Origin: Thermophilibacter immobilis
GTDB taxonomy: Bacteria; Actinomycetota; Coriobacteriia; Coriobacteriales; Atopobiaceae
Length of the DNA stretch: 64,000 nucleotides
NCBI RefSeq assembly: GCF_015277515.1
Contig: NZ_CP063767.1
Span: 744,001-808,000 of the forward strand
Direction: 5' to 3'
The notes below the pieces were generated by a model. That model searched no databases. It was not told where the DNA came from and saw only the letters and a list, made by a program, of their open reading frames with translations. Both the position numbers and the translations under genes were made by a program. Of this stretch, positions 5,367-59,577 are shown piece after piece (the first letter of the stretch is position 1; every line of letters starts with the position of its first letter).

Positions 5367-7004
5367 ATGGCAAACACCATGACTCGTCGCAGCTTCCTTA
5401 AGGGTGCCGCTCTGACAGGCGCCAGTGCGTCTGCGGCGACCCTCGCGGGCTGCGGAGGCTCGGACGGCGGCTCCACCACGGACGGGGGAGCCAAGAAGAA
5501 GATTCTGCGCTTCGGCCAGACCAACGCCAAGCTGGGCCTGGACATGCAGAAGTCCACGAACTCCGGATCCTCGTCCATCGCGGACTCCGTCTTCGAGGCG
5601 CCCCTGCGCTGGACCGAGGACAACGAGCTCGTGACCTGCCTGCTCACCGAGATTCCCACGTTCGAGGACGACGGCGTGACGCTGCACTGCACGCTTAAGG
5701 ACAACATCTTGTGCCACGACGGCTCCACGCTCACGGCCTCCGACGTCAAATTCACCTTCGAGCGCATGTTCACCCCCTCCACGGCCGCCAAGTCCACCTA
5801 CATGTACGATCTGATCAAGGGTGCCCCTGAGATGCTGGCCGGCACGGCAACCGAGCTCGAGGGTCTCACCGTGGAGGACGACACCCACTTCACCTTCGTG
5901 CTCTCCGAACCCATGGTCACCTTCGTGAACAACCTGGGCATCAACTACGCCCAGATCTTCCCGCAGAAGGCCTGCGAGGAGGCGGGCGATCAGTGGGGCT
6001 GGGGCACCAACTGCGTGGGCACCGGCAAGTACAAGATCGTCTCCAACGACGACACCACCGAGGTCGTCATGGAGAAGTTCGCCGACTACCATGATGGCGA
6101 GCCCGCCCTCGACGAGCTCGACTACATCTTCTATGACGACAACAACACCAAGCTGATGGCCTACAAGAACGGCGACATCGACTGGTGCGACCTCGCGGCC
6201 GACCAGATCGCCCAGTATCAGGCCGACACCGAGGTTGCCGACCAGATCACCCTCTACGACACGCTCGGCGTGCACTTCGTGAACCTGAACCTCAAGGAGG
6301 GGATGGGCCTCGAGGACGTCCGTGTGCGCCAGGCGCTCTCGCTCGCCGTCAACCGCCAGGAGCTCATCGACACCGTGCTCAACGGTGCCGGCGTTGCCGC
6401 CACGGGCTGGCTCGCCCCGCAGACCCCGGGCTACGACTCCTCGGCCGAGCTGCCCTACGACCCCGAGCGCGCCAAGGAGCTTCTCGCCGAGGCCGGCGTC
6501 TCCGGGCTCAAGCTCGAGGCCAAGATTCGCGCTGGCGTCTACGAGAAGTACATGACCGTCATTCAGAGCTACTGGAGCGAGATTGGCGTCGAGCTCTCCC
6601 TTCAGACCGAGGACAATGGCGTCTGGGCCTCGGACTGGGCCGACGGCAACCTCCAGATCACGGCCCTCGCATGGTTCCCCCTCTACGCGGACGCGGACAA
6701 CCACCTCTACACGTACTTCTACAGCACCAATGCCGCCGGCAAGTCCTCCTTCTATGACAACTCCGAGTTCGACGACCTTGTGAGCCGCGCGCGGCGCTCG
6801 CAGGATCCCGACGAGCGCAAGCAGCTCTACATGGAGGCCGACAACCTCGTCACGCGCACCGACTTTGCGACGGTCCCCCTGTTCTGGCCCAAGAACTCCT
6901 TCGTGGCCAAGCCCTACGTCAAGAACGCCAAGGTCGGCAACCTCATCTATCACATGTTCGATCTTGACATCGACACCACCGACGAGAGCTACACCACGGC
7001 GTAG
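5367..7004 (+). CDS. Peptide ABC transporter substrate-binding lipoprotein (family 5)
   Basis: 545 residues. The ATG at 5367 has GAGAAAGG 9 bases upstream and gives a Tat-type signal, TRRSFLK at 6-12, running into lipobox LAGC with Cys29, so the protein is exported and lipid-anchored. The mature part has the SBP_bac_5 pattern, including DVKFTFERM near the N-terminus and VRQALSLAVNR in the second half. Length is normal for DppA/OppA-type proteins, which bind di- or oligopeptides and deliver them to the permeases encoded next. A 14-bp hairpin separates it from the permease genes, which would allow higher expression of this component. Peptide specificity is inferred from the complete DppBCDF set and the two peptidase genes downstream. 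Confidence 0.88.
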   Translation: MANTMTRRSFLKGAALTGASASAATLAGCGGSDGGSTTDGGAKKKILRFGQTNAKLGLDMQKSTNSGSSSIADSVFEAPLRWTEDNELVTCLLTEIPTFEDDGVTLHCTLKDNILCHDGSTLTASDVKFTFERMFTPSTAAKSTYMYDLIKGAPEMLAGTATELEGLTVEDDTHFTFVLSEPMVTFVNNLGINYAQIFPQKACEEAGDQWGWGTNCVGTGKYKIVSNDDTTEVVMEKFADYHDGEPALDELDYIFYDDNNTKLMAYKNGDIDWCDLAADQIAQYQADTEVADQITLYDTLGVHFVNLNLKEGMGLEDVRVRQALSLAVNRQELIDTVLNGAGVAATGWLAPQTPGYDSSAELPYDPERAKELLAEAGVSGLKLEAKIRAGVYEKYMTVIQSYWSEIGVELSLQTEDNGVWASDWADGNLQITALAWFPLYADADNHLYTYFYSTNAAGKSSFYDNSEFDDLVSRARRSQDPDERKQLYMEADNLVTRTDFATVPLFWPKNSFVAKPYVKNAKVGNLIYHMFDLDIDTTDESYTTA

Positions 7005-7022
7005 CATCCTCCAGGGGACCTC

Positions 7023-7062
7023 GCGGGCGTCTCGGCGCGAAGCTTCGTGCCGAGACGCCCGC
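7023..7062 (+). terminator. Intercistronic hairpin, partial terminator or mRNA stabiliser
   Basis: Perfect 14-bp stem, GCGGGCGTCTCGGC and its complement, around a 12-base loop that itself contains CGAAGCTTCG. Only TCTTG follows, so readthrough to the permease genes is expected. Hairpins at this place in binding-protein operons commonly protect the upstream message. Confidence 0.65.
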
Positions 7063-7125
7063 TCTTGAAGCGGGCGGCGCAGCGAGAGGCTCCGCATCGT
7101 CCGTGCGAACAGGAAGGAGCGGGTG

Positions 7126-8061
7126 GTGAGAGACTATCTCATCAAGAGGATCCTGCTGGCCGTGGGCGTCGTCCTTGCCATCTCGGCCATCACGTTCTTC
7201 GTGCTGAACATCGTGCCGGGAGACCCGGTGCGCATCATGGTGGGTGACATGGCCGATGACGCCACCATCGAGCGGGTCCGCGAGCAGATGGGCCTTAACA
7301 AGCCCGTCATCGAGCAGTTCTTCACCTGGCTCACCAACATGCTGCGCGGTGACTTCGGAACCTCGTACGCCCAGCGCAAGCCGGTCATCGACCTCATCGT
7401 CAACGCCCTGGGCACCACCGTCAGGCTGGCCGGCCTCGCCTACCTGCTCGCGCTCGCCTCCGGCCTGGTCGTGGGCATCGTATCGGCGGTCAACCACGGT
7501 CGGGCCCTCGATCGCACGCTCATGTCCCTCTCGATCCTGGGCATCTCCGCGCCGGTCTTCTGGGTAGCGGTCATCCTCCAGATCATCTTCGCCCTCACGC
7601 TCAAGTGGTTCCCGCTCTCGGGTATAAAGACCTGGCAGGCCTTCGTACTCCCTGTCATCGCGCTCGGCGTGCGCTACGCCGCCTCCATCGCCCGCGTCAC
7701 GCGCACGAGCATGATCGAGGTCCTCTCGCAGGACTTCATGCGCACGGCGGAGGCCAAGGGCATCCGAAAGTGGGCCGTTATCTTGAGGCACGGTCTGCGC
7801 AACGCCCTCATTCCCATCATCACGATCGCGGGCACCCAGCTCGGTGACATCTTCACGGGCTCCATCCTCATCGAGTCGATCTTTGGCATGCCGGGCATGG
7901 GCAAGCTCCTGCTCGACGCCATCAATGCCCGTGACCTGCCCCTCATTGAGGGTGGCGTTATGTACATCGCCATCATTTGCGTCGTGGTCTATCTCATCGT
8001 CGACATCCTGTACGCCGTCGCCGACCCGCGCATCCGACTGGGAGAGGAGGCGGCTGCGTAA
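7126..8061 (+). CDS. Peptide ABC transporter permease, DppB/OppB type
   Basis: 311 residues and six membrane segments, the first at about 8-30 (LLAVGVVLAISAITFFVLN). The short periplasmic stretch after segment 1 and the EAA loop (about residues 200-225, ending in a G near RKWAVILRHGLRNALIP) are typical of the BPD_transp_1 family, which forms the membrane channel with the next gene's product. Two GTG codons are adjacent; the second (7126) is chosen because AAGGAG lies 6 bases before it, against 3 for the first. The stop overlaps the next start by one base (TAATG), so the two permeases are translationally coupled. Confidence 0.88.
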   Translation: MRDYLIKRILLAVGVVLAISAITFFVLNIVPGDPVRIMVGDMADDATIERVREQMGLNKPVIEQFFTWLTNMLRGDFGTSYAQRKPVIDLIVNALGTTVRLAGLAYLLALASGLVVGIVSAVNHGRALDRTLMSLSILGISAPVFWVAVILQIIFALTLKWFPLSGIKTWQAFVLPVIALGVRYAASIARVTRTSMIEVLSQDFMRTAEAKGIRKWAVILRHGLRNALIPIITIAGTQLGDIFTGSILIESIFGMPGMGKLLLDAINARDLPLIEGGVMYIAIICVVVYLIVDILYAVADPRIRLGEEAAA

Positions 8062-9032
8062 TGGCACTCTTTACGAGCGACAGGCGCGATCGCAAGGTCC
8101 AGAGCGCCGAGCAGGTCGCGGGGCGTGCGAGCGAGGCCCAGATTCCCCAGGCGCCCGACGGGGATCCGGACGCCTCGGGCAAGAAGCGGGCGTCGAGCTA
8201 CTGGGCCGTGAGCTGGAACATCTTCAAGAAGAACAAGCTTGGCGTGTTCTGCCTGGTCGCGGTGGTCGCTCTCGTCCTCGTGGCGCTCTGCGCCCCGCTG
8301 CTCGCACCCTATGACCCGGACGCCCAGGAGCTCACCAACATGCTCAAGGCCCCCTCGGCGGCCCACGCCTTTGGTACCGACGAGTTCGGCCGCGACATCC
8401 TCTCGCGCGTCATCTACGGCTGCAGAGTGTCCCTCTCGGTCGGGGTGGTCTCCCAGGCCATCGCGCTCGTCATCGGGTTTCTCGCCGGCGTCGCCGCGGG
8501 CTACTTTGGCGGCAAGGTGGACGCGGTGATCTCCTTCGTAATCCAGGTCTTCTCGAGCTTCCCGTTCCTGCTCTTTGCGATCGTCGTCATGTTCGCCCTG
8601 GGACCGGGCCTCATCAACCTCTACGTGGCTCTGGGCCTGCTCATGTGGACCTCCACGGCGCGCCTCGTGCGCGGCGACGTCATGCGCCTCAAGGGCTCCG
8701 AGTACATCCAGAGCTGCATCCTCTCGGGTGGCAAGAGCTGGCGCATCATCATGAAGCACCTGCTGCCCAATTGCGTCTCCACGCTCATCGTGACCTCCAC
8801 CCTGGGCATCCCGTCGGCGATCCTGTCCGAGGCCTCTCTGTCCTTTCTGGGTCTGGGTGTCCAGCCGCCGATGGCGAGCTGGGGGCAGATGATCTCGGCC
8901 AGCCAGCCCTACATACAGTCGAGCACGTACTACAGCGTCATCCCCGGCATCGCCATCATCATCACGGTCATGGCGTTTAACCTCCTGGGCGACGCGCTGC
9001 GCGACGCCCTCGATCCCAAGATGCGCTCCTAG
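8061..9032 (+). CDS. Peptide ABC transporter permease, DppC/OppC type
   Basis: 323 residues. A cytosolic N-terminal stretch of about 50 polar residues precedes the first membrane segment (CLVAVVALVLVALCAPLLAPY), then HAFGTDEFGRDILSRVIYG, a hallmark of DppC-type permeases, and five more segments with the EAA loop around LSGGKSWRIIMKHLLPN. The ATG overlaps the TAA of the dppB-like gene, which fixes the start even though the frame is open further upstream. With the DppB-like subunit it forms the heterodimeric pore. Confidence 0.88.
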   Translation: MALFTSDRRDRKVQSAEQVAGRASEAQIPQAPDGDPDASGKKRASSYWAVSWNIFKKNKLGVFCLVAVVALVLVALCAPLLAPYDPDAQELTNMLKAPSAAHAFGTDEFGRDILSRVIYGCRVSLSVGVVSQAIALVIGFLAGVAAGYFGGKVDAVISFVIQVFSSFPFLLFAIVVMFALGPGLINLYVALGLLMWTSTARLVRGDVMRLKGSEYIQSCILSGGKSWRIIMKHLLPNCVSTLIVTSTLGIPSAILSEASLSFLGLGVQPPMASWGQMISASQPYIQSSTYYSVIPGIAIIITVMAFNLLGDALRDALDPKMRS

Positions 9033-9044
9033 GAAGGGGGACCC

Positions 9045-10124
<1,080 letters not shown>

Positions 10125-10127
10125 CCG

Positions 10128-11192
<1,065 letters not shown>

Positions 11193-11305
11193 GTCCTCAC
11201 GGGTGTTCTTTACGAGCGGGGGTCAGATTTCTCGCGGCTCATGCGGGCGGCGCATAATCGAGGCAGATAACAGCGACCCCGCGCGAGCGGGAGAAAGCAG
11301 GAGCC

Positions 11306-12559
11306 ATGTCCGACGTTGTTGATCGATTCGTGCGCTATTGCGCGGTTGCCTCGCAGTCCGACCCCCTGACGGCGGACCACGTCCCGTCGACCGAGTCCCA
11401 GTTCAAGATTGCCGAGGTCATTGCCGATGACCTGCGCGAGCTGGGCGCCCCTGACGTAAAGGTGGACGAGCACGCCTATGTCACGGCCCACTGGCCCGCG
11501 AGCGAGGGCTGCGTGGAGCTGCCCACCCTCGGGTTCTGCTGCCACATCGACACGGCGTGGCAGAGCTGGGGCGACCCCGTGCACCCGCTCATACGTCGCT
11601 ACGAGGGAGGGGAGTTCGTCATCGGCCAGGGTCGCGACGGACGCCCCGTCGTCATCAGCCCCGCCACGAACCCGCAGCTCGAGCACCTGGCGGGCACCGA
11701 GCTCGTGACGGCAGACGGAACCTCGCTTTTGGGCGGAGACGACAAGGCCGGCGACGCCATGTGCGTCTCCCTGCTCGCCCGCCTCAAGGCCGACCCGGCC
11801 CTGCCGCACCCCCGCCTGGCCTTCGCCTTCGTCCCGGACGAGGAGATCGGCCACGGGGCGGCCCTGCTCGACCTCGACGAGTTCGGCGCGACCTTCGGCT
11901 ACACCATCGACGGCGGCCCGCTCGGCGAGTTCTGCTACGAGACGTTCAACGCCGCCGAGGCCCACGTGCGCGCCCGTGGGCTCTCGGTCCACACGGGCAC
12001 GGCCAAGGCTACGATGATCAACGCCTCCGAGGCCATCATGCGCTTCCACCAGCTGGTCCCCCCCGCGGAGCGCCCCGAGTTCACCGAGGGCTACGACGGC
12101 TTCTTCTACCTCGAGCGCATGGAGGGCAGCTGCGAGGAGGCGAGCGCCGACTACATCATCCGCGACCACGACCAGGCGCAGATGGAACGCCGCGCCCAGA
12201 TTCTGCGCGACGCAGTCCAACTCGTGAACGCCCAGTTTGGCACTGACGTCCTCTCAATCGAGATTCACGATCAGTACCGCAACCTCGCCGACGTGGTCTG
12301 CCTCCCCGAGAACGCCCATCTGATCGAGAACGCGCGCTCCGCCTACGCCGCGATCGGGCAGGAGATGACCTGCATCCCCATGCGCGGCGGCACCGACGGC
12401 TCCCAGCTCTCCTTCAGGGGCTTCGCCTGCGCGAACCTCTCGGCGTGCTACTACAACGCCCATGGCGTGCGGGAGTTCGTGCCCGTGCGCGAGCTCGAGT
12501 CCATGGTCGACATGCTGCAGGCGCTGGTCGGCCTCTACGCACGGCCACAGACGGCGTAG
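11306..12559 (+). CDS. pepT: Tripeptide aminopeptidase, PepT-like (M20)
   Basis: 417 residues. Zinc-site motifs of M20B peptidases are in order: HIDT (about residue 79), GGDDKAGDA with the bridging Asp (about 142), DEEIGHGA with the catalytic and ligand Glu (about 176), and a late His in CYYNAHGVREFVP. The lid domain lies between. PepT removes the N-terminal residue of tripeptides in the cytosol. It sits behind a complete peptide importer and ahead of an M42 peptidase gene, so it probably degrades imported peptides. ATG 11306 has AGAAAGCAGGAG upstream. Length agrees with PepT (about 410). Confidence 0.85.
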   Translation: MSDVVDRFVRYCAVASQSDPLTADHVPSTESQFKIAEVIADDLRELGAPDVKVDEHAYVTAHWPASEGCVELPTLGFCCHIDTAWQSWGDPVHPLIRRYEGGEFVIGQGRDGRPVVISPATNPQLEHLAGTELVTADGTSLLGGDDKAGDAMCVSLLARLKADPALPHPRLAFAFVPDEEIGHGAALLDLDEFGATFGYTIDGGPLGEFCYETFNAAEAHVRARGLSVHTGTAKATMINASEAIMRFHQLVPPAERPEFTEGYDGFFYLERMEGSCEEASADYIIRDHDQAQMERRAQILRDAVQLVNAQFGTDVLSIEIHDQYRNLADVVCLPENAHLIENARSAYAAIGQEMTCIPMRGGTDGSQLSFRGFACANLSACYYNAHGVREFVPVRELESMVDMLQALVGLYARPQTA

Positions 12560-12598
12560 GGGAGGGCGAACGGTATGAATGAGGACGAAGGAGTGGCA

Positions 12599-13654
12599 AT
12601 GAGCTACGAGATAGATCCCGAGCGCCTGGTTCGGACGCTTCACGAATGCGTCGAGATCGAGAGCCCTGTGGGCTACTACCCCGAGATTCACGAGTGGCTG
12701 CACGAGGTCCTCGCCGAGATGGGCTATGAGATGACCGTCGACCGCAAGCAGACCGCCTACGTGCGCGTCGCCGGGCGCGACGGCTCCAAGACCGTCTGCG
12801 TGGGGGCCCACCTGGACACCATCGGGCTCATCGTGCGCGGCTTCAACGACGACGGCACCCTGCGCGTTCGCCAGCTCGGCGGAATCAACTACCACAGCAT
12901 CGAGGGCGAGACCTGCCTCATCCACTGCCGCGACGGCCGCACGGTGTCCGGCCAGGTCGTCTGCAACCACCACTCGGTGCACGTCTGGGCCGAGGCCAAG
13001 ACCGACGAGCGGACCGAGGACACCATGTCCGTCTCGATTATCGGTGACGTGAGCTGCCCGGCGGACGCGCGTGCCCTCGGCGTGAGCGAGGGAGCCATCG
13101 TGGGCATCGACCCCCACTTCGAGGAGTTCGACAACGGCTACCTGGTCAGCCGCCACATCGACGACAAGGCGGCCGTCTCCGTGCTGCTCGACGTTCTGCG
13201 TTGGCTCGCGACCACGGGCGAGAAGCCCGTCTACGACACCCTCTTCGCGTTTCCCATCTACGAGGAGATCGGCCACGGTGGTGTCTGGGTGCCCGCCGAC
13301 GTCTCGGAGTACGTGGCCCTCGACATCACGCTCATCGGGCCGGACTACGACGCCGACGAGCATAACGTGGGCATCATCGCCGCCGACGCCAAGGGCCCCT
13401 ACGACTGGGGCCTCACCAACACGCTGATCGCCTGCGCCACGACTGCCTGCGACGAGGGCAAGTGGAACACCCAGGTCTGCTTTCACTACTCCACGGACGC
13501 CAACGCCGCCTACACGCACACCAACGACCTCGCGAGCGGGGCCTTTGGCATGGCGTGCCTTAGCTCCCACGGCCGCGAGCGCTGCCACGTGGACGCGCTC
13601 GTCCAGACCGAGAAGCTCTGCCGCGCCTATCTCATGGGCGAGGGCCGCGCGTAG
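12599..13654 (+). CDS. M42 family metallopeptidase (glutamyl/deblocking aminopeptidase type)
   Basis: 351 residues. Metal-ligand motifs of the M42 family are present: GAHLDTIG (His, about residue 68), SRHIDDKAA (Asp, about 185), EEIGHGG (Glu pair, about 221), a downstream Asp in VALDITLIG and a late His in SSHGRERCH. These dinuclear aminopeptidases form large tetrahedral cytosolic complexes that trim short peptides. The start at 12599 has GAAGGAG 5 bases upstream; an in-frame ATG at 12575 with GGGGAGGG is a possible alternative that adds eight residues. Placement after pepT and the peptide importer suggests joint use in peptide catabolism. Confidence 0.85.
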   Translation: MSYEIDPERLVRTLHECVEIESPVGYYPEIHEWLHEVLAEMGYEMTVDRKQTAYVRVAGRDGSKTVCVGAHLDTIGLIVRGFNDDGTLRVRQLGGINYHSIEGETCLIHCRDGRTVSGQVVCNHHSVHVWAEAKTDERTEDTMSVSIIGDVSCPADARALGVSEGAIVGIDPHFEEFDNGYLVSRHIDDKAAVSVLLDVLRWLATTGEKPVYDTLFAFPIYEEIGHGGVWVPADVSEYVALDITLIGPDYDADEHNVGIIAADAKGPYDWGLTNTLIACATTACDEGKWNTQVCFHYSTDANAAYTHTNDLASGAFGMACLSSHGRERCHVDALVQTEKLCRAYLMGEGRA

Positions 13655-13698
13655 GGGCGCATGCCCTGCGGCTCGCCGAGACTTAGGATGCACGGCTT

Positions 13699-13729
13699 CG
13701 AGCCCGTCCTCTGGCTGAGGACGGGCTCG
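13699..13729 (+). terminator. Hairpin terminator after the M42 peptidase gene
   Basis: Perfect 13-bp stem beginning CGAGCCCGTCCTC with a TGGCT loop, followed by TTT. It closes the peptidase unit. Confidence 0.75.
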
Positions 13730-13732
13730 TTT

Positions 13733-14005
13733 GCTGCAGTTTGGGCCTTCGGTACACGTTTCTGCGCCCGCTTCTGCGGTTTGGGCTTTCGACACGCGCC
13801 CCCAGGGGTCGCGCCTTGGCTGGCCCCTCGGATTATTCATTTCAGGTTTTATCGCACTGCTCTGGGCTGGCCCTTCGCTGAGTCCCATCTTCAGATAATT
13901 AATTTTATATATGATATATTTGGGCAGCGAGAAAAGAGGTGCGCGTCGAAAGGGCAAACTGCATCTCGGAATCGCAAAACGTGTGTCGAAGGTCCAAACT
14001 GCAGC
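13733..14005. repeat. 273-bp nested inverted-repeat element
   Basis: Outer arms of 29 bp (13733-13761 and 13977-14005, three mismatches) enclose inner arms of 24 bp (13776-13799 and 13939-13962). Outer and inner arms are themselves related (G-C-A/G-GTTTGGGC-C/T-TTCG), so the element is two direct plus two inverted units around a 139-bp core that is AT-rich near 13900. It fills most of the 434-base gap between the M42 gene and the zinc-ribbon gene. No gene is visible inside. Confidence 0.8.
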
Positions 14006-51346: not shown

Positions 51347-51997
51347 CTAGGGCTCAAGCAGATCCTCGACCTTGCAGTCGAGCGTTTGAGCCAAGTGCCA
51401 GACGGAGAGGGCATGGGCGCGGTTGATGTCTTTTTTGCGCTGCTCATACTGCTGGATTGCGCGTAGCGAGACGCCCGAGGCCTCTGAAAGCGCCGCCTGG
51501 GTGAGTCCGGACACTGAACGAAAAGTGCTCAGGCGCGTAGGCACCACCGTGTGTAGATAGATCTCCTCTAGGGCAAGTGACGCCGCACGTGGAGTAGCCG
51601 TTTGATTTTGAGTGTATAGATTGATTAAATCGTCTGCGGACAGGTACAGCGAGATGGCTCGAAAGCTTGCTCCTGTCATCCACTGGTGAAAAGCGAGAAC
51701 CTCCCCGCACCATCGAGCTCGGTCGCGTACGCCCTTGGGAAGGCGTTTCTCCGAGGAGAGCATGGTTTCAAGCGATTCGATGCCGTCTCCCTCGCAGACT
51801 GCAAGTACGAGTTCGATGCCCGAGTCGCTTACCTGCGGGCAAGCATCGGGCCCATCAAAGGTCCGTGAGATGGTTGAGGTGCAGAAGAGGTCGTAGAAGT
51901 GAGCCACGCCCCCGGGAAGATGCTTTTCAGCAAAGTCAAAAGCCTTCCCAAGCGTGTTTGCGGCTGTTTTTAGATACTGTTCGTCGTATGGGTGCAA
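51347..51997 (-). CDS. XRE-type regulator with an N-terminal DUF3990/DUF3791-associated domain
   Basis: 216 residues. The N-terminal part (YLKTAANTLGKAFDFAEKHL, FYDLFCTSTISRTFDG, WCGEVLAFHQWMTGASFRAI) resembles a Firmicutes protein family that, as I recall, is often encoded beside DUF3791 and DUF3990 genes. The last 60 residues are an XRE helix-turn-helix (SGLTQAALSEASGVSLRAIQQYEQRKKDINRA). An HTH at the C-terminus is unusual for XRE regulators. No DUF3990 or DUF3791 gene is nearby. It is divergent from the permease-HyuA genes and probably controls them. GC is visibly lower than in uvrC. Confidence 0.72.
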   Translation of the reverse strand: MHPYDEQYLKTAANTLGKAFDFAEKHLPGGVAHFYDLFCTSTISRTFDGPDACPQVSDSGIELVLAVCEGDGIESLETMLSSEKRLPKGVRDRARWCGEVLAFHQWMTGASFRAISLYLSADDLINLYTQNQTATPRAASLALEEIYLHTVVPTRLSTFRSVSGLTQAALSEASGVSLRAIQQYEQRKKDINRAHALSVWHLAQTLDCKVEDLLEP

Positions 51998-52343
51998 TTC
52001 TTCACCACCGTGTAATTATATGGATAAATTGTGTATTAATAACCACTTCTCCTACCGTTCACCGGAGTATATCCTCACGTTAACTCAGAGAGTATGCAGA
52101 TAAATAGCAGAGTCAATCTCTCAGAAAGGGACTATCTCTACAGAGATACTAAGGCATGCTTTGTGCAGATTCAACCAAGTGGTACGCAAAAGCCACTGGG
52201 TGGCGTAGCTCATTGTCATCCCGTATCACCCCATGCCGCTTACGACAAAGCGGACAGGGAGAGTGGTGAATGGGTGCTAGATTGGGCCGCGTCGTTTAGG
52301 TGGGTCCCGCAGTCTATTGGACCCTGTCAGTAAAGGAGGGGAC
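51998..52343. promoter_or_regulatory. AT-rich divergent control region with a 16-bp palindrome
   Basis: A 346-base gap between the XRE regulator and the permease gene. It has AT-rich stretches near the regulator start, the palindrome TATCTCT-AC-AGAGATA at 52133-52148 and a 6-bp hairpin GGGTCC/GGACCC at 52302-52324 just before the ribosome site AAAGGAGGGG. The palindrome is the best operator candidate. No small gene could be supported. Confidence 0.45.
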
Positions 52344-53624
52344 ATGGCCACTGTGCAGGTAGCCCTGATTCTCGCTGTGTTCATTGCGGGCGTTGCGCTC
52401 ATGATGACCAAGAAGATGCCCGCAATTCTCGCGTTGCCCGTCATGGGTATTCTGATTGCGGTCGTAGCCGGAGTCCCGTTCACGTCAAGTGACGCTGACG
52501 CCAAAACCATCATGGGCTTTGTGATCAGCGCCGGCGCAGCCAAGCTTGCGACCACCATTACGGTCACGATTTTCGGGGCCATCTTTGCCAAAGTGGTTCA
52601 GAAAGAGGGAATTTCAGACGCCATCATTCGAAAGGCAGCAGAGCTTGCTGGTGATAAACCCTTGGCAATCGCGCTTGTGCTCACGGCGGCCATCGCACTT
52701 ATCTTCACGGCCATGAGCGGGGCTGGCCCTGTGATTATGGTTTCCCAGATTGCTATACCCCTGTTTCTTTCCGCCGGCATCTCTCCTGTAGTCGCTGCAA
52801 GTCTAATCTTGTTTGGCCTCAACATCGGCTTGCTCTTCAACGTGTCGCAGTATCAGCTTTATGTTGATACTATCGGTATGGACATGGGGGTCATCACCTC
52901 GACATCGGTAATCATGGGCATTGTCTGTGCCGTGGTGACCGTCGTCTACGTTGTGGTCCACACGCGCGGCAAGTCGACCTCGGCCGCTTGGGCCATGAAA
53001 TCTGACGACACCACCACAAAAGGCGTTAACCCCGTGGCGCTCATCATGCCCATTATCCCTATCGTGCTCGTCTTCTTCCTTAAGTGGAACGCTGAAACCG
53101 CCCTCATCGCAACCATCGTGATTACCGCTCTCATCACAAAACCGAAGCAGGCTATGCAGGTACTCTCGAGCTCGGTGGTTGAGGGCATCAAGGACGTCGC
53201 TGGAGTCGTAGGTCTCATGGTCGGCATAGGAATTCTACTCAACGGCGTGGCCGCCCCGCAGACCTCTGCGCTCATGCAGCCCATCATTTCTCTGATCCTT
53301 CCGTCTAATCCCCTTGTTTATGTGGCGCTGTTTACGATTCTCTCGCCTTTGGCACTCTATCGTGGCCCCCTCAACATGTATGGTCTAGGGTCTGGTCTTG
53401 CTAACATCTTTGTGGCTGCTGGTACGTTGTCTCCGGCTGCGGTGGGCATGGCGCTGCGCTCCACGAGCGTTGTCCAGTGCGTCGCTGATCCAACTAACAC
53501 ACAAAACGTTATTGTGGCCGACTATGCCAATGTGGACGTAAACGACATCCTGAAGTCCACGCTGCCGTATACCATGGTCATGGCGTTTTGTATCCTCGCA
53601 TACACTGCCGTCACCCTGTTCTAG
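52344..53624 (+). CDS. Ion-transporter-superfamily permease (GntP/CitMHS-like)
   Basis: 426 residues with about 11 to 12 membrane segments and AAAGGAGGGG before the ATG. The opening VALILAVFIAGVALMMTKKMPAILALPVMGILIAVVAGVPF, and two halves each with a re-entrant-like small-residue stretch (AMSGAGPVIMVSQIAIP; GLGSGLANIFVAAGTLSP), fit secondary carriers for organic acids. The substrate is unknown; the neighbouring HyuA-like and FAD genes suggest a small carboxylate or cyclic amide. GC and codon use are lower and less skewed than in the surrounding genes. Confidence 0.75.
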   Translation: MATVQVALILAVFIAGVALMMTKKMPAILALPVMGILIAVVAGVPFTSSDADAKTIMGFVISAGAAKLATTITVTIFGAIFAKVVQKEGISDAIIRKAAELAGDKPLAIALVLTAAIALIFTAMSGAGPVIMVSQIAIPLFLSAGISPVVAASLILFGLNIGLLFNVSQYQLYVDTIGMDMGVITSTSVIMGIVCAVVTVVYVVVHTRGKSTSAAWAMKSDDTTTKGVNPVALIMPIIPIVLVFFLKWNAETALIATIVITALITKPKQAMQVLSSSVVEGIKDVAGVVGLMVGIGILLNGVAAPQTSALMQPIISLILPSNPLVYVALFTILSPLALYRGPLNMYGLGSGLANIFVAAGTLSPAAVGMALRSTSVVQCVADPTNTQNVIVADYANVDVNDILKSTLPYTMVMAFCILAYTAVTLF

Positions 53625-53701
53625 GTCTTGTTGTCAACGGTTGAGGAACGGGGCGCTTTAGTGCCCCGTTCCCATTTGCTCAGAACCCAGAAAGGCAATT
53701 C

Positions 53702-55852
53702 ATGAGTAAGAGAACTGTCAGAATTGGTATAGATGTTGGAGGAACTTTCACCGACGCCGTCGTGGTCGACAACGAGACTTATGAGGTCATTGCCAAAGAG
53801 AAGGTACCCACTACCCACCATGCCGAGCAAGGTGTGGCCGCAGGTATCGTGACAGCTATCGAGAAGGTGCTCACCAAAAATCGTATCTCTCCCGATGACG
53901 TCATCTTCATTGCGCATGGCACGACTCAGGCCACCAATGCCCTGCTTGAGGGTGATGTAGCCAAGGTTGGTATCATCGGCATGGGGCATGGCGCCGAGGC
54001 CGGACGCTCCCGTAGGGAAACTACGGTGGGGAATATTGAGCTTGCGCCTGGGAAGTACCTTGCTACAGAACACGAGTTTCTTGACAGCTCGTCTATGAGT
54101 GACGCTGCCATTCACCATGCGGTCGAGACCTTGCGCTCCCGCGGCTGCGAGGTCATTGTGGCCTCGGAGAGCTACTCGGTGGACGATCCTACCAACGAAC
54201 TGCGGGTTATCAAGGTTGCCAACGACTGTGGGATGATTGCCACAGGCGGTTACGAGATTTCGCAACTTTATGGGCTATCTTCCCGTACGCGTACGGCCGC
54301 CGTTAACGCGGCACTCATCCCTAAGATGATGGAAACGGCCGACATGACCGAGGCGGCTGTGCGCGGCTCAGGCATCTCTAAGCCGCTCATGATTATGCGC
54401 TGCGACGGCGGGGTCATGTCCATCGATGAAGTTCGCAAACGCCCCATTCTCACCATGCTCTCAGGTCTTGCCGCTGGCGTGGCGGGCGCGCTCATGTACG
54501 AAAAGATAACTGACGGCATCTTCCTCGAGGCAGGTGGTACATCCACCGATATCTCGGCCATCAAGGACGGTAAGGTCATGATTAAGAACGCCGAGGTAGG
54601 TGGACATAAGCTCTACCTTACTTCGCTTGACGTACGTACGCTGGGTGTTGCGGGCGGATCCATGATCGTGGTTGAGGGTGGTCATCTGAGCGATGTGGGG
54701 CCACGTTCAGCCCATATCGCCGACCTGGATTATGAGGTATTCACCCCCGTCGAGAAAATCGTGGATCCTCGGGTGAAGCTTATCGCTCCACGCAAGGAGG
54801 ACAGACCCAGCTATGCTGCGATAGCCTGCAGAAACGGCGAGTCTTACGCCCTCACGCTGGCGGGAGCTGCCAATATCTTGGGCTATGTGCCGTCAGGAGA
54901 CTATGCATCTGGAAATATAGAGGCGGCACGGTTGGCATGGCAGGCCTTAGCCTCGTCTCTGGGCAGCTCTGTCGAGGACCTCTGTCGGCAGGCTATGGAC
55001 ATTGCCATGGGCAAGGTGGCAGAGGTCGTACGGAGCCTCACTATCGACTACGACCTCAATCCCAATCTCATCTATCTCATAGGCGGTGGCGGGTCGGCTT
55101 CCGTGGTGGCCCCGGCGCTCGGAGACAAAATGGGTATCCGGCATCGTATTGCTGCCAATGCTCCTTATATATCCACGATCGGCGTCTCTCTGGCTCTAGT
55201 GCGTGAGCAAATCGAGCGAAACGTTTCCAACCCCACCGACGCGGACATTCGCAAGATTCGCCATGACGTCACGGAGGTTATAGTACGTGCCGGTGCTGCT
55301 GCTGAGACCGTAGACATTACCGTGGAAATCGATGCGCAGAGAAGTATTTTGCGCGCTACAGCAACGGGAGCCACGGAGTTGCGCACCAAGGATCGTGTGG
55401 GAGAGAAACGCTCTGAGACTGAGCTTGCAGCCCTGGTGGCCGAGGCGGCTGAAGTGGACGTTTCGGCCGTGAGCTGCGTAGCTTCCGAGGGCCGCTGGCA
55501 CGTTTTTCAGGTCACCGCTCAAAAAAAGGCCCTCTTTGGTCTGGTCCGATCCAAGAAGAAGCTCATTCGCGTGGTGGACGAGGAGGGTGTTATCCGACTG
55601 CAAAAGGACGATGCTCGCGTGTGCGTCTTCACAAGGGAAGAGCTCTCTGAGGGCTTCTCGTCATTCGTAGACTCCATGACGCGCTACAGCGATGCGGGGG
55701 CCACGCTTCCCAAGACATACCTCTTCTTTGGGCAGAAACTTTCCGATCTCTCAGGGGTGCTTAATAAGGAGCAGCTCATGAGCCTTGCTGAGCTAGAGCT
55801 CGAATTTGCCGGAGAAAATCAGCCTATCGTGGCCGTTGCAGCTAGAGACTAG
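53702..55852 (+). CDS. Hydantoinase/oxoprolinase subunit A-like protein (solitary HyuA)
   Basis: 716 residues. The N-terminal RIGIDVGGTFTDAVVVDN and AHGTTQATNALLEG, and the central EAGGTSTDISAIKDGKV and IGGGGSASVVAPALG, are the actin-like ATPase signatures of HyuA/5-oxoprolinase A. The last 180 or so residues (ITVEIDAQRSILRATATGATELRTKDR onward) are not part of the usual core. HyuA normally works with a HyuB subunit; none is present here. It probably couples ATP hydrolysis to opening of a cyclic amide or to another carbonyl activation. The next gene starts 2 bases after the stop. Lower GC suggests transfer. Confidence 0.82.
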   Translation: MSKRTVRIGIDVGGTFTDAVVVDNETYEVIAKEKVPTTHHAEQGVAAGIVTAIEKVLTKNRISPDDVIFIAHGTTQATNALLEGDVAKVGIIGMGHGAEAGRSRRETTVGNIELAPGKYLATEHEFLDSSSMSDAAIHHAVETLRSRGCEVIVASESYSVDDPTNELRVIKVANDCGMIATGGYEISQLYGLSSRTRTAAVNAALIPKMMETADMTEAAVRGSGISKPLMIMRCDGGVMSIDEVRKRPILTMLSGLAAGVAGALMYEKITDGIFLEAGGTSTDISAIKDGKVMIKNAEVGGHKLYLTSLDVRTLGVAGGSMIVVEGGHLSDVGPRSAHIADLDYEVFTPVEKIVDPRVKLIAPRKEDRPSYAAIACRNGESYALTLAGAANILGYVPSGDYASGNIEAARLAWQALASSLGSSVEDLCRQAMDIAMGKVAEVVRSLTIDYDLNPNLIYLIGGGGSASVVAPALGDKMGIRHRIAANAPYISTIGVSLALVREQIERNVSNPTDADIRKIRHDVTEVIVRAGAAAETVDITVEIDAQRSILRATATGATELRTKDRVGEKRSETELAALVAEAAEVDVSAVSCVASEGRWHVFQVTAQKKALFGLVRSKKKLIRVVDEEGVIRLQKDDARVCVFTREELSEGFSSFVDSMTRYSDAGATLPKTYLFFGQKLSDLSGVLNKEQLMSLAELELEFAGENQPIVAVAARD

Positions 55853-55854
55853 TC

Positions 55855-56526
55855 ATGCGCAACGTTGACATACGCAGTATTCCGTATGCGACTGACGAAA
55901 CACTCAGCGTACTCGAGCTGCTGAATGATCGCTCGACGACGTCTGCCGAGCCGTCTGACATAGCGACAGTAGCTCGTGCTGCCTTGTCACTTGGTCGCAA
56001 TGAGGCCATGCGTTGGAGGGGCTTTAATCTTACGGTGGAGCTTCAACGTGCGGGCATGGAGGTACGACACGTGAAATCATCGCCAAGCGGAGGGGGCTCT
56101 CCTGTCCGCCTGGCAGCTCTTACAGTCTTTGGCAAAAGTCCTGGAAAAGAGCGTTATGTGGATCTCTTCTTGGATGAGATAGCCCGCAAGCAGGAGGCTC
56201 TCGCTACCTGTGGGATTGAGATGAGCTTGGATGAACTCGTAGAGATTCATCTAGCGCATGAGTTCTATCACTTCGTGGAGTTCTCCCACAATCGAAGAAC
56301 CGAAGAGATGGTGCCTGAGGTGCGTATGCGTGGTCGATGGGCCGCGCGCCATCACCGACTGAAGCATGCGGGTGAGGTGGGGGCTCATGCATTCGCCAAG
56401 GAATGGACGGGTAGCGCGCTGCATCCGATTCTTTTGGATGTCATAGTCCAGATGACCTGGAGTAGACCAATGCGCGATGACTTCGAAGGCCGCGTCAGAA
56501 GGGCCTGGGAAATTCTGGGCATGTGA
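55855..56526 (+). CDS. Uncharacterised HEXXH zinc-metalloprotein candidate
   Basis: 223 residues. IHLAHEFYHFVEF contains HEFYH at 135-139, the HExxH zinc-binding motif with Glu136 as the catalytic base. A Glu at 174 in HAGEVGAHAFA is a plausible third ligand, as in minigluzincin-type peptidases. There is no signal peptide, so it should act in the cytosol. I do not recognise a family. It starts 2 bases after the HyuA-like gene and is followed by the FAD gene, so it probably belongs to the same pathway, either as an amidohydrolase replacing HyuB or as a maturation protease. Confidence 0.65.
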   Translation: MRNVDIRSIPYATDETLSVLELLNDRSTTSAEPSDIATVARAALSLGRNEAMRWRGFNLTVELQRAGMEVRHVKSSPSGGGSPVRLAALTVFGKSPGKERYVDLFLDEIARKQEALATCGIEMSLDELVEIHLAHEFYHFVEFSHNRRTEEMVPEVRMRGRWAARHHRLKHAGEVGAHAFAKEWTGSALHPILLDVIVQMTWSRPMRDDFEGRVRRAWEILGM

Positions 56527-56552
56527 CGTGTCGAGGAAGGAAGAGGGGATGT

Positions 56553-57893
56553 ATGGAGACCTACACATTTGCGCATAACAGCGTACGGATTTTGGGGACC
56601 TGGGACACCGTGGTTGTAGGGGGTGGTACGGCGGGTTCTTCGGTCGCCATCAGTGCTGCGCGCGAAGGCAACAAAACGCTTGTGGTGGAACGCTACGGCT
56701 CCTTAGGCGGTACACCTGCTCATGCCCTCGTCTCTCCGATGATGGATTCGCGTTGCCCGCATCTACGCAATCTGGATGAGCTAGAACGCCATCTTCAGAC
56801 GCATGGTCTTATCACGCGCGAAGGCAAAGACCGCATGGGTTATGTTTGGTTTACGCCCGAAGCGCTCTCGGACTCGCTGGAAGACATGCTGCTCGACGCC
56901 GGTGGCCGGGTTCTCTACGACGCCACACTTGTTAGGGCCGATGTAAGCGAAGGTCGCATCAGGGCCGTCGAGGTCATGACCGTGGAGGGCCCCTGTGCGA
57001 TTCTGGCGCATCAGTTTGTAGATGCTACCGGGGATGCAGTTCTCTCTCGCATGTCCGGAGTTCCCTGCGTGGCTGGTGACGATGCCGGCAACAACCAAAT
57101 CTGCTCTCTGCGCTTCGAAATGGGGGGAATTGACGTTGATGCCTACCGTGCGTACTGTCTCTCCCTAGGAGATGACTTTTCTCCGCTCGTGGATGGTCAC
57201 TTCTGGGAGTCTGCCATGGTGGCGGGCAGGGGCTTTGTACTCGAGCCTCTGTTCAGAAGGGGGGTCGCCGACGGGATGCTGGAAGAATCTGACCTGGTCT
57301 ACTATCAGTGCTTCTCCCTGCCAGGAGAGCCGGGAGTGATGGCGTTCAATTGCCCCCATTTGCCGGAACTGCACCGTAATACGTCTGCGCTCGCCCGCTC
57401 TGAGGCGCTCACCGAGGGCCGACGTCGCATACGCAGGCTGACCGCGTTTCTCGTTCATTATATGCCGGGCTTTGAGCACGCATTTTTGGTACGCGAGGCT
57501 AATATGCTAGGAGTGCGTGAGAGCTGGCGCATCCAAGGCAGCTACATACTCGACGTTAGCGATTACGTGGGCCGCGCTCGTTTTGATGATGCGGTGGCGC
57601 GAGGAACTTGGTACATTGATGTCCACTCTGCGACCAAGGGCCTTGTTCATATGGAGAAGTACGCTCGAGGTGAATACTATGAAATCCCGTATCGCTGCCT
57701 TACCAATAAGGTTATACGCAATATTTTGACGGTGGGCCGCTGCATCTCCACGAGTTTTCTCGTCCAGGCCAGCGTGCGCATCCAGCAGACCGTCATTGAT
57801 ATGGGTGACTCCGCAGGCCGCGCCTGCGCGCGAGCCCTCTCGTCAGACGTTGACTTGGCGGACTTCAACGGCCGCGGTCTCATGGAAGAGTGA
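56553..57893 (+). CDS. FAD-dependent oxidoreductase (FAD_oxidored family)
   Basis: 446 residues. The FAD fold TWDTVVVGGGTAGSSVAISAAREGNKTLVVERYGSLGGTPAHALVSPMM near the N-terminus, the middle QFVDATGDAVLSRMSGVP and the C-terminal NILTVGRCISTSFLVQASVRIQQTVIDMGDSAGRAC match the PF12831-type flavoproteins. AGAGGGG lies before the ATG at 56553. It is the last of the lower-GC genes; GC rises sharply at nanK, 10 bases further on. The substrate is unknown. Confidence 0.8.
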   Translation: METYTFAHNSVRILGTWDTVVVGGGTAGSSVAISAAREGNKTLVVERYGSLGGTPAHALVSPMMDSRCPHLRNLDELERHLQTHGLITREGKDRMGYVWFTPEALSDSLEDMLLDAGGRVLYDATLVRADVSEGRIRAVEVMTVEGPCAILAHQFVDATGDAVLSRMSGVPCVAGDDAGNNQICSLRFEMGGIDVDAYRAYCLSLGDDFSPLVDGHFWESAMVAGRGFVLEPLFRRGVADGMLEESDLVYYQCFSLPGEPGVMAFNCPHLPELHRNTSALARSEALTEGRRRIRRLTAFLVHYMPGFEHAFLVREANMLGVRESWRIQGSYILDVSDYVGRARFDDAVARGTWYIDVHSATKGLVHMEKYARGEYYEIPYRCLTNKVIRNILTVGRCISTSFLVQASVRIQQTVIDMGDSAGRACARALSSDVDLADFNGRGLMEE

Positions 57894-57903
57894 GGAGGAA
57901 GCC

Positions 57904-58854
57904 ATGAGCCAGACCATCGTCGCCGTCGACATCGGCGGTACCAAGGTCGCCTGCGGCATCGTGACCCTGGGAGACGGCACCCCTCGAATCTCGAGCGTCG
58001 AGAAGGTCCCGACCGAGGCCGAGAGGGGAGGGGCGCACGTCCTCTCCGTCGTCATCGAGCGGGTCGCCTCGGCCATCCGTCACGCGGGCGCGAGGCCCGT
58101 GGGCGTGGGCATCTCGTCAGCCGGCGTGGTGAACCCGCGCACGGGAGACATCACCTTCGCGAACGACCTCATGCCCGGCTGGGGAGGCACGTCGCTCTCC
58201 TCCGAGGTCACGACAGCGACGGGCTTTCCCTGTCGCGTGCTCAACGACGTTCACGCCCACGCGCTCGGCGAGGCGCGCTGGGGCGCGGGCCGAGATGCGC
58301 AGAGCTGCCTGGTGGTCGCCGTGGGCACCGGCGTCGGCGGGGCCTTCGTCGAGAGAGGCCACGTCATGCTTGGCGCGCACGACGAGGCCGGACACATCGG
58401 CCACGTCTGCTGTCCGGCCGCGTCTGGCGTGCCGTGCTCCTGCGGAGCCGTGGGTCATCTCGAACCCGTTGCCGCGGGTCCCGGGATCGTCTCCGAATAC
58501 GTGCGACGGGGCGGGACGAAGACCTTGCCGGACGGCACGCCAGTAGACGGGGCTGAGATCGATCGCCGCGCCGCCGCTGGTGACGAGGCCGCCCGTGCCG
58601 CACAGGCCCGCGCGGGCCATGCCCTCGGCGAGGTTCTTGGCAGCATGTGCAACATGCTCGATCCGGCGTGCGTGATTCTCTCGGGCTCCGTGGCCCAATG
58701 CGGATCGGACTGGTCGGACGCCCTGCACGCCTCCTTCGTCGATCAGGCCATGCCCCCCGTCGCCAAAACCCCCCTTATGGGCGGCACCCTTGCGGGCGCC
58801 GCGCCCCTTATCGGCGCTGCCGAGAACTTCGCACGCTCGGCCTATGTCCTGTAG
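57904..58854 (+). CDS. nanK: ROK-family kinase, probably N-acetylmannosamine kinase
   Basis: 316 residues. The nucleotide loop VAVDIGGTKVACGIV, the catalytic-region NDVHAHALGEARWG, GTGVGGAFV, the zinc motif with EAGHIGH and the following CxCGAVGHLE, and LDPACVILSGS are standard ROK features. The neighbouring nanE makes ManNAc kinase the likely role, phosphorylating ManNAc at O6 in sialic-acid breakdown; glucokinase is the alternative. GAGGAAG precedes the ATG. High GC contrasts with the gene immediately upstream. Confidence 0.8.
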   Translation: MSQTIVAVDIGGTKVACGIVTLGDGTPRISSVEKVPTEAERGGAHVLSVVIERVASAIRHAGARPVGVGISSAGVVNPRTGDITFANDLMPGWGGTSLSSEVTTATGFPCRVLNDVHAHALGEARWGAGRDAQSCLVVAVGTGVGGAFVERGHVMLGAHDEAGHIGHVCCPAASGVPCSCGAVGHLEPVAAGPGIVSEYVRRGGTKTLPDGTPVDGAEIDRRAAAGDEAARAAQARAGHALGEVLGSMCNMLDPACVILSGSVAQCGSDWSDALHASFVDQAMPPVAKTPLMGGTLAGAAPLIGAAENFARSAYVL

Positions 58855-58887: not shown

Positions 58888-59577
58888 ATGCGCGTCAGCC
58901 CGCTTGTAGAGTCTCTTAGGGGCAAGCTCATCGTCAGCGTCCAGGCGTATCCGGGCGAGCCCCTGCGCCACCCCGAGACTATGGCCCAGATGGCGCGGGC
59001 CTGCGAGTTGGGGGGCGCTGCGGCGATTCGCTGTCAGGGCCTCGCCGACATCGCGGCCATCAAGGGGTGCGTCGAGGTCCCCGTCATCGGGCTATGGAAG
59101 GAGGGGCATGAGGGCGTCTACATCACGCCGACCCTGCGCCATGCGCTCGCGTGTGCGAGCGCCGGTGCCGATGTGGTGGCACTTGACGCCACCGACCGGG
59201 CCCGCCCCGACGGCCGTACCTTCGAGGAGACCGTCGTGGACTTTCGCTCTTCGACCGATGCCCTCCTCATGGCAGACTGCATGACGATCGAAGATATCCG
59301 TCGCGGCGTGTCCGCCGGCTGCGATGTGGTCTCCACGACGCTCTCTCACAACAAAGCTGCGATTGACACCACTCTTGACGATGGTCCCGACCTGGCAATT
59401 CTGCGCGCCGCCGCGTCGGAGTTCCCCGACTTCCCGATCGTCTGCGAGGGTCACGTCCACACTCCGGTCGACGCCCGGCTCGCGATTGACGCGCGCGCCT
59501 GGGCCGTGGTCGCCGGCACGGGCATCACGCATCCGACAAGCATCACGAGCTGGTTCAAGGCGGCGATCGAGGGCTGA
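58888..59577 (+). CDS. nanE: N-acetylmannosamine-6-phosphate 2-epimerase
   Basis: 229 residues, TIM barrel. IVSVQAYPGEPLRHPETMAQMARACELGGAAAIRCQ, DIAAIKGCVEVPVIGLWK, GVYITPTLRHALACASAGADVVALDAT and the catalytic Lys region are NanE signatures. It converts ManNAc-6-P to GlcNAc-6-P. GAAGGAG lies 7 bases upstream of the ATG. No nanA, nagA or nagB is in the window, so sialic acid use would need genes elsewhere. Confidence 0.9.
   Translation: MRVSPLVESLRGKLIVSVQAYPGEPLRHPETMAQMARACELGGAAAIRCQGLADIAAIKGCVEVPVIGLWKEGHEGVYITPTLRHALACASAGADVVALDATDRARPDGRTFEETVVDFRSSTDALLMADCMTIEDIRRGVSAGCDVVSTTLSHNKAAIDTTLDDGPDLAILRAAASEFPDFPIVCEGHVHTPVDARLAIDARAWAVVAGTGITHPTSITSWFKAAIEG

Follow-up and report, generated by a model that had tools for sequence, protein, structure and literature searches.

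The window analysed here is a 64,000-nucleotide stretch of Thermophilibacter immobilis DNA (contig NZ_CP063767.1, positions 744,001 to 808,000), and our subject is an island at positions 51,347-57,893 of it, in which a gene for a HyuA-type ATPase subunit is directly followed by a gene for a zinc protein with an HEXXH motif. The guanine-plus-cytosine content (GC) of the island is 0.558 as compared to 0.683 in the remaining window, and in 90 windows of equal size taken outside the island it is never below 0.640. The lower GC pointed out in a sequence-only reading of this stretch is thus borne out, and it marks a compositionally foreign unit. The same reading had described tight gene spacing, a dedicated permease and a divergent regulator, and the coordinates agree: two bases separate the HyuA stop (55,852) from the start of the HEXXH gene (55,855), a flavin adenine dinucleotide (FAD) oxidoreductase gene follows, and both permease and regulator are present. 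The genes of the island and the two that come after it are as follows.

51,347-51,997, minus strand: XRE-type regulator, divergent, with a helix-turn-helix near the C-terminus and an N-terminal part without match (Pfam HTH_3, E 3.7e-4, 20.9 bits, below the cut-off of 23)
52,317-53,624, plus strand: permease of the DcuC/CitMHS/DctM type, the carboxylate type being suggested by weak, sub-threshold matches (E 5e-8 to NCBIfam DcuC_1 and E 0.013 to Pfam DctM)
53,702-55,852, plus strand: HyuA-type ASKHA ATPase subunit (Pfam Hydantoinase_A, 1.1e-63; Hydant_A_N, 2.8e-26)
55,855-56,526, plus strand: HEXXH zinc protein with a predicted IrrE/ImmA-like (M78) fold (motif H135, E136, H139, E174; AlphaFold2 model)
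56,523-57,893, plus strand, as open reading frame (ORF): FAD-dependent oxidoreductase PF12831 (Pfam, 1.2e-92)
57,904-58,854, plus strand: ROK-family sugar kinase (Pfam ROK, 2.5e-44; sub-threshold matches to models of glucokinase and N-acetylmannosamine kinase)
58,888-59,577, plus strand: NanE, putative N-acetylmannosamine-6-phosphate 2-epimerase (NCBIfam NF002231, 239.3 bits against a cut-off of 189)

The end of the island at 57.9 kb, as drawn in the sequence-only reading, holds for the low GC but probably not for the transcription unit, which would run on into ROK and NanE, the former starting 10 bases past the FAD stop. By GC at third codon positions (GC3) these two genes (0.84 and 0.82) are nearer to the upstream uvrC (0.96) than to the four plus-strand genes of the island (0.57-0.66). 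Both are long-established neighbours of this chromosomal slot. The flavoprotein start is likelier to be the ATG at 56,553, because the alignments of relatives begin inside the long ORF; among five relatives, the first aligned residue was 11 in three, 22 in one and 6 in one. Sequence searches against solved structures returned nothing for the permease and matches to the FAD domain only for the flavoprotein.

HyuA without HyuB, and its zinc-protein partner

The HyuA sequence scores over cut-off for both of its Pfam domains and has no Pfam match past residue 503. Its ATP-site motifs (G9-T15, T17 and G278-T280) are invariant in 82 sequences. A structural model (predicted local distance difference test, pLDDT, 85.4) matched acetone carboxylase at Z 33.0, with 506 residues aligned, acetophenone carboxylase at 25.4 and caprolactamase A at 21.2. 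These matches are confined to residues 2-573, and the stretch beyond was unmatched in the whole-model comparison. In the hydantoinase/ketone carboxylase family, as described in PMC5214803, alpha and beta core subunits are normally both present, with the gene order AB, and ATP activates a carbonyl. The beta subunit, HyuB (PF02538), had no match anywhere in the T. immobilis genome (one contig, 2.16 Mb, 99.93% complete), and none in 15 other genomes that carry the gene set, 13 of which reach a completeness of 90% or more with contamination of 5% or less; the same search gave a match in 6 of 14 control genomes. The HyuA that had been called solitary from the window alone is therefore without HyuB in its whole genome. 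What seems new here is a HyuA-type system that lacks HyuB and has a different, conserved partner.

That partner, the HEXXH protein, has no Pfam match, the M78 model included. Six positions are invariant in 86 aligned sequences: H135, E136, H139, E174, A177 and F180. To judge from the sequence, E174 would be a zinc ligand. In IrrE, the zinc is held by His82, His86 and Glu113, that is, by an HEXXH motif and a downstream glutamate (PMC5552922). The AlphaFold2 model of the HEXXH protein has a pLDDT of 93.9, and the top four rows in VIA-align were all IrrE/PprI (Z 8.6, 8.4, 8.3 and 7.8 over 105-108 residues; the first, 3dte, covers 108 of 223 residues at 2.9 Å), followed by CapP at 5.5. Because best Z scores of 7 to 8 are common in VIA-align even without a true relative, the IrrE-like assignment leans on the motif as well. 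The likeness comes from VIA-align, Foldseek having given no match at E<=0.001. In sequence searches nothing significant was found among solved structures, and a single-protein query of viral_contigs, which detects close relatives only, returned no relative. With four haloarchaeal and Streptomyces relatives of the protein, the M78 model gave one weak match, at 17.8 bits, below its cut-off of 22.

Conservation and company of the module

The four genes for permease, HyuA, HEXXH protein and flavoprotein, which we call the module, recur widely. A scan of named genomes with the C-terminal part of HyuA gave 522 relatives, and all counts out of 80 loci refer to the best 80 of these. The HEXXH gene follows HyuA in 78 of the 80 loci, within 300 bp in 77 and at 311 bp in L129, and so the pairing, which the sequence-only reading had proposed to look for across genomes, is indeed conserved. 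Neither of the two findings that this reading had named as counting against its idea, a HyuB elsewhere in the genome or a HEXXH gene not kept beside HyuA, was therefore made. As for the two others, the contig ends inside or at HyuA in L089, and L072 has no HEXXH gene beside HyuA, its genome holding one about 10 kb further on. The profile used was built from 17 coriobacterial sequences, to which 4 of the 80 loci belong, and it had no other match among 3,658 ORFs. A permease is found near HyuA in 76 loci and an FAD flavoprotein in 74.

Among 200 relatives of the organism, its own genome included, 35 contain some match to the HyuA of the window. Near-full-length matches at a minimum of 40% identity, a cut that we chose ourselves, number 19 and fall in 16 genomes; the 19 other genomes have shorter or weaker matches, which we took for HyuA of other types and left out of the count. 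Exactly these 16 genomes are matched by the HEXXH profile, and the remaining 184 are not. This profile (A3) includes sequences from 14 of the 16, so that the result is circular for those, whereas the 184 negatives are free of this flaw. HEXXH matches number 18 against 19 for HyuA, and the missing one belongs to a genome (G094) whose contig ends 1.1 kb past HyuA.

The module also extends to plasmids, 6 of 8 plasmid matches having been examined (H4 and H7 left out). For example, plasmids of Halostagnicola, Haladaptatus and Halocatena carry HyuA together with a related transporter and a PF12831-like flavoprotein and, downstream, a gene that matches the HEXXH profile (E values from 1.7e-15 to 4.4e-9 when four sequences were searched); the transporters are 32-37% and the flavoproteins 27-33% identical to module members. 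A Streptomyces plasmid has a similar set, with a profile E value of 2.7e-9 (ORFs of three loci). Beside a Deinococcus HyuA of 38% identity no HEXXH gene adjoins.

Two further families accompany the module in a minority of cases. Genes of the DUF4127 family lie near it in 7 of 80 loci (e.g. L058:10674-12149 and L071:15643-17154), and a Pfam-unmatched family of some 231 residues, which we call L058_6, lies in or near it in 9 (e.g. L137:6746-7441 and L058:9892-10677). The name DUF4127 did not occur in the open-licence papers searched. Nor did those papers contain a description of the module, an outcome that, being limited to open-licence papers, is no proof of novelty. In L054, two flavoproteins flank the module (L054:3471-4853 and L054:10573-12003), with 61% and about 30% identity to that of the window, and the same arrangement is seen in L055.

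Sugar genes recur around the module. The family scan of neighbours covered 70 of 129 operon-linked proteins shorter than 700 amino acids, and the families drawn from it make up 25 of 94. A protein cluster of about 285 amino acids, represented by an RpiR/SIS regulator, is found at 50 of the 80 loci. ROK-type genes were near the module in 27 by clustering and 24 by tblastn, and relatives of NanE at no more than 6 kb from HyuA were counted in 13 by tblastn and 11 by ORF calls. For example, L067 reads NanE, a 286-amino-acid gene of RpiR size, permease, HyuA, HEXXH, FAD, ROK, NagB and NagA, with NanE, NagB and NagA each over the model cut-off; in L066, NanE, ROK and NagA come after FAD. In L018 the neighbours on the other strand are a LacI regulator, a PfkB kinase close to models for 2-keto-3-deoxygluconate (KDG) kinase, and the C-terminal part of a 2-keto-3-deoxy-6-phosphogluconate (KDPG) aldolase domain; relatives of this regulator and kinase recur in L019. 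Genes for aldose epimerase, D-lyxose isomerase, a sialate-esterase-type protein, YhcH, DUF1537, FGGY, GH127 and rhamnosidase are found near other copies. By tblastn, genes of the dihydrodipicolinate synthase (DHDPS) family, which includes NanA, were absent from the 6 kb around each of the 80 copies; one lies at 7.2 kb. XRE homologues are present at 5 of the 80 loci (L061-L065) and in coriobacterial loci L012-L015 and L017, four of these five being the same genomes as L061-L064, which are also within the set of 200 relatives; near other copies, RpiR, DeoR, LacI, GntR and other regulators take the place of XRE. In the haloarchaeal copies L203 and L207, genes annotated as an AGE-family epimerase and a sulfatase-like protein are nearby, which is again sugar company.

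The position of the island in the chromosome was compared with 10 of the 21 other genomes of the genus that have NanE, the genes being located by tblastn. All 10 regions show the same run of a DHDPS-family gene, ROK and NanE, next to genes of an ABC transporter. The binding-protein gene of this transporter was seen in nine, the tenth being cut by a contig end, and uvrC comes next after it in all seven regions that were extended. The window reads uvrC, island, ROK, NanE, and hence the island fills the slot that its congeners give to the transporter and the DHDPS/NanA-family gene. No gene of the congeners' cassette was found in the window at more than 45% identity. The congener DHDPS-family gene has a best match of 31% in the T. 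immobilis genome, as compared to 75-99% between congeners, and for the large ABC transporter gene the match with the highest score there has 38%. Since the congener DHDPS-family protein scores below the cut-offs of the NanA models, we infer the substrate of the old cassette, and call it sialic-acid-like, from its company. After NanE, 9 of the 10 congener regions have a GFO/IDH/MocA oxidoreductase gene, which is unmatched in the window from 59,577 onward.

Proposed working and rival explanations

We consider it about an even chance that the island represents a conserved module of four genes, made up of a carboxylate-type permease, a HyuB-less HyuA, an M78-fold zinc protein and a PF12831 flavoprotein, which would import and degrade a sugar or sugar-acid derivative. 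Gene content, conservation, linkage, the chromosomal slot, the absence of HyuB, the intact motifs of HyuA and the zinc protein, and the fold predictions form the basis of this reading; chemistry, substrate and regulation are its presumptive part. The permease would import the compound and HyuA, like its family, would phosphorylate a carbonyl (enol or imidate) with ATP. The zinc protein would complete or enable that step in place of HyuB, and the flavoprotein would carry out a redox step in most copies. Because the island sits where relatives keep sialic-acid-like uptake and splitting genes, we propose that in this genome the product probably enters the amino-sugar pathway: the released sugar, here most likely N-acetylmannosamine (ManNAc), would be phosphorylated by ROK and converted by NanE to N-acetylglucosamine 6-phosphate. 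The ROK protein, whose own specificity is presumed from this setting, is thus probably a hexosamine kinase fed by the module.

A bolder form of this proposal, which we hold to be rather unlikely as it stands, is that HyuA and the M78-fold protein form a new two-part ATP-dependent enzyme, in which HyuA phosphorylates a sugar derivative at a carbonyl and a protease fold, turned to small-molecule chemistry, performs the cleavage that falls to HyuB in other systems. With the flavoprotein, it would constitute a NanA-independent route to ManNAc, and to other sugars in other copies, across Bacillota, Actinomycetota, Spirochaetota and haloarchaea. If the main reading of a sugar-degrading module is right, many microbes of gut, rumen, soil and salt lakes would possess an undescribed sugar pathway, many proteins named hydantoinase or oxoprolinase would be misnamed, and a HyuA-type ATPase would operate without HyuB and with a peptidase-fold partner. 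The module would then also offer a setting in which to study the HEXXH, DUF4127 and L058_6 families.

Several observations weigh against the sugar-degrading module and its link to ROK and NanE. NanE is near only 13 of the 80 copies and other copies adjoin other sugar genes; therefore the substrate may vary. The flavoprotein is not nearby in 6 of 80 loci, nor in L016, L018, L019 and L021. In one genome (G060, contig C12) the HEXXH gene is the fourth after HyuA, with a gene of the L058_6 family, DUF4127 and FAD in between, and Selenomonas plasmid pSRC1 has FAD, permease and HyuA with no HEXXH match in a search of the plasmid only that had no positive control. The T. immobilis genome contains four weaker DHDPS-family relatives (26-31%, from a search that did not use a NanA model). 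One of these, a DapA-family gene, lies in a cluster with BNR-repeat and YhcH-family genes, from which ROK and NanE could be fed. Two of the 10 congeners (G022 and G030) hold both the cassette and, elsewhere, a module copy with no NanE beside it, and thus the module is not simply a substitute everywhere. Finally, ROK and NanE follow another cassette in the congeners, so their position here could be a leftover and not a working link. The DapA-family cluster (L208, C1:436000-455999, locus 6237-13843), a second one that looks devoted to sugar acids, comprises in full a DUF1537 kinase, an iron alcohol dehydrogenase, the DapA-family protein, a CitMHS transporter, the BNR-repeat protein and the YhcH-family protein.

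The alternative that survives best, though we judge it less likely than not, places the zinc protein outside any small-molecule pathway, as a specific protease that either brings HyuA to maturity or removes it, perhaps acting at its additional C-terminal stretch, or else cleaves a local repressor, as IrrE does with the XRE-type DdrO. The predicted fold, with IrrE/PprI ahead of the next alignment, would suit such a role. So would the pattern of conservation. When loci with the full set of four proteins were compared in pairs (2278 pairs), the HEXXH protein came last in conservation in 2172, its six invariant positions notwithstanding. Because such low conservation is unexpected for an enzyme with a fixed small substrate, we keep the protease role as a serious rival. 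In many bacteria COG2856 proteins are paired with XRE regulators (PMC7907104), and the window has an XRE gene. However, the scarcity of XRE at other modules, where RpiR, DeoR, LacI, GntR and other regulators stand instead, and the position of the HEXXH gene after HyuA and not after a regulator, both speak against it. As a general role of the HEXXH gene the XRE-protease pair is rejected on the same count of 5 in 80, and it is retained as a rival for the clade of the window.

Two explanations strike us as somewhat less probable still. The module could lead from acids of the sialic type (2-keto-3-deoxy) to mannose or ManNAc by way of HyuA and flavoprotein in place of the aldolase NanA. The occupied slot upstream of ROK-NanE is consistent with it, as are the genes for NanE, lyxose isomerase, AGE-family epimerase, YhcH and sialate-esterase-type proteins near copies and the lack of DHDPS-family genes within 6 kb of any of the 80. 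Yet the chemistry of the HyuA family is not known to cleave sialic-type acids, the KDG-kinase-like, FGGY kinase, GH127 and rhamnosidase neighbours suggest other sugars, and the sub-threshold NanA scores leave the substrate of the congener cassette presumptive. The other explanation, of like probability, is that a foreign island landed beside ROK-NanE by chance, without any link. Its low GC3 relative to ROK and NanE would fit, and so would the module copies of G022 and G030, which lie away from ROK-NanE. A chance landing is, however, hard to square with an island that fills exactly the uvrC-ROK stretch that holds the cassette in congeners, with the 10 bases between FAD and ROK, and with NanE and ROK adjoining the module in other phyla too.

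Least likely of these is the narrow form of the idea in the sequence-only reading, by which the pair would act as a hydantoinase, oxoprolinase or lactamase and the HEXXH protein would stand in for HyuB, supplying the hydrolytic half that depends on a metal. The intact motifs and fold of HyuA and its constant pairing with HEXXH argue for it, and the second subunit of caprolactamase likewise carries a metal site proposed for hydrolysis, mutants of its residues being inactive (PMC8453981). Set against this are the sugar genes that recur around the module and a predicted fold that is a peptidase fold. Hydantoins and 5-oxoproline, which the sequence-only reading had suggested as substrates, find no favour among the neighbours: those that recur are NanE, ROK, NagA/NagB, KDG-kinase-like and aldose epimerase genes and RpiR/SIS regulators, the slot lies upstream of ROK-NanE, and no supporting neighbour stood out among the listed families, with one Asp/Glu/hydantoin-racemase-family gene (L126) and one OPT transporter (L091) present.

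Relation to known systems

The module shares with the hydantoinase/ketone carboxylase family (HyuAB, 5-oxoprolinase, caprolactamase CapAB, and the acetone and acetophenone carboxylases) the N-terminal and ASKHA domains of HyuA, the ATP motifs and the fold over residues 2-573. It differs in having no HyuB in any of the 16 genomes searched, in the C-terminal part of HyuA that Pfam leaves unmatched, and in the zinc peptidase-fold protein after HyuA. Caprolactamase of Pseudomonas jessenii likewise combines an ATPase subunit with a metal-dependent second subunit (PMC8453981), but CapB is a HyuB-type subunit with a D/H metal site, whereas the partner in the module has an HEXXH peptidase fold.

With IrrE/PprI and ImmA (COG2856, peptidase M78), the zinc protein has in common the HEXXH motif, the downstream glutamate and the predicted fold. 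It is set apart by the missing Pfam M78 match, by the rarity of nearby XRE genes and by its pairing with a metabolic ATPase. Finally, in comparison with NanA-NanK-NanE catabolism of sialic acid and ManNAc, the island has ROK and NanE in common and stands where congeners have their cassette of transporter and DHDPS-family gene, whereas the T. immobilis genome has no close relative of the congeners' DHDPS-family or ABC transporter gene, and the window holds HyuA, a zinc protein, a flavoprotein and a single permease in their place.

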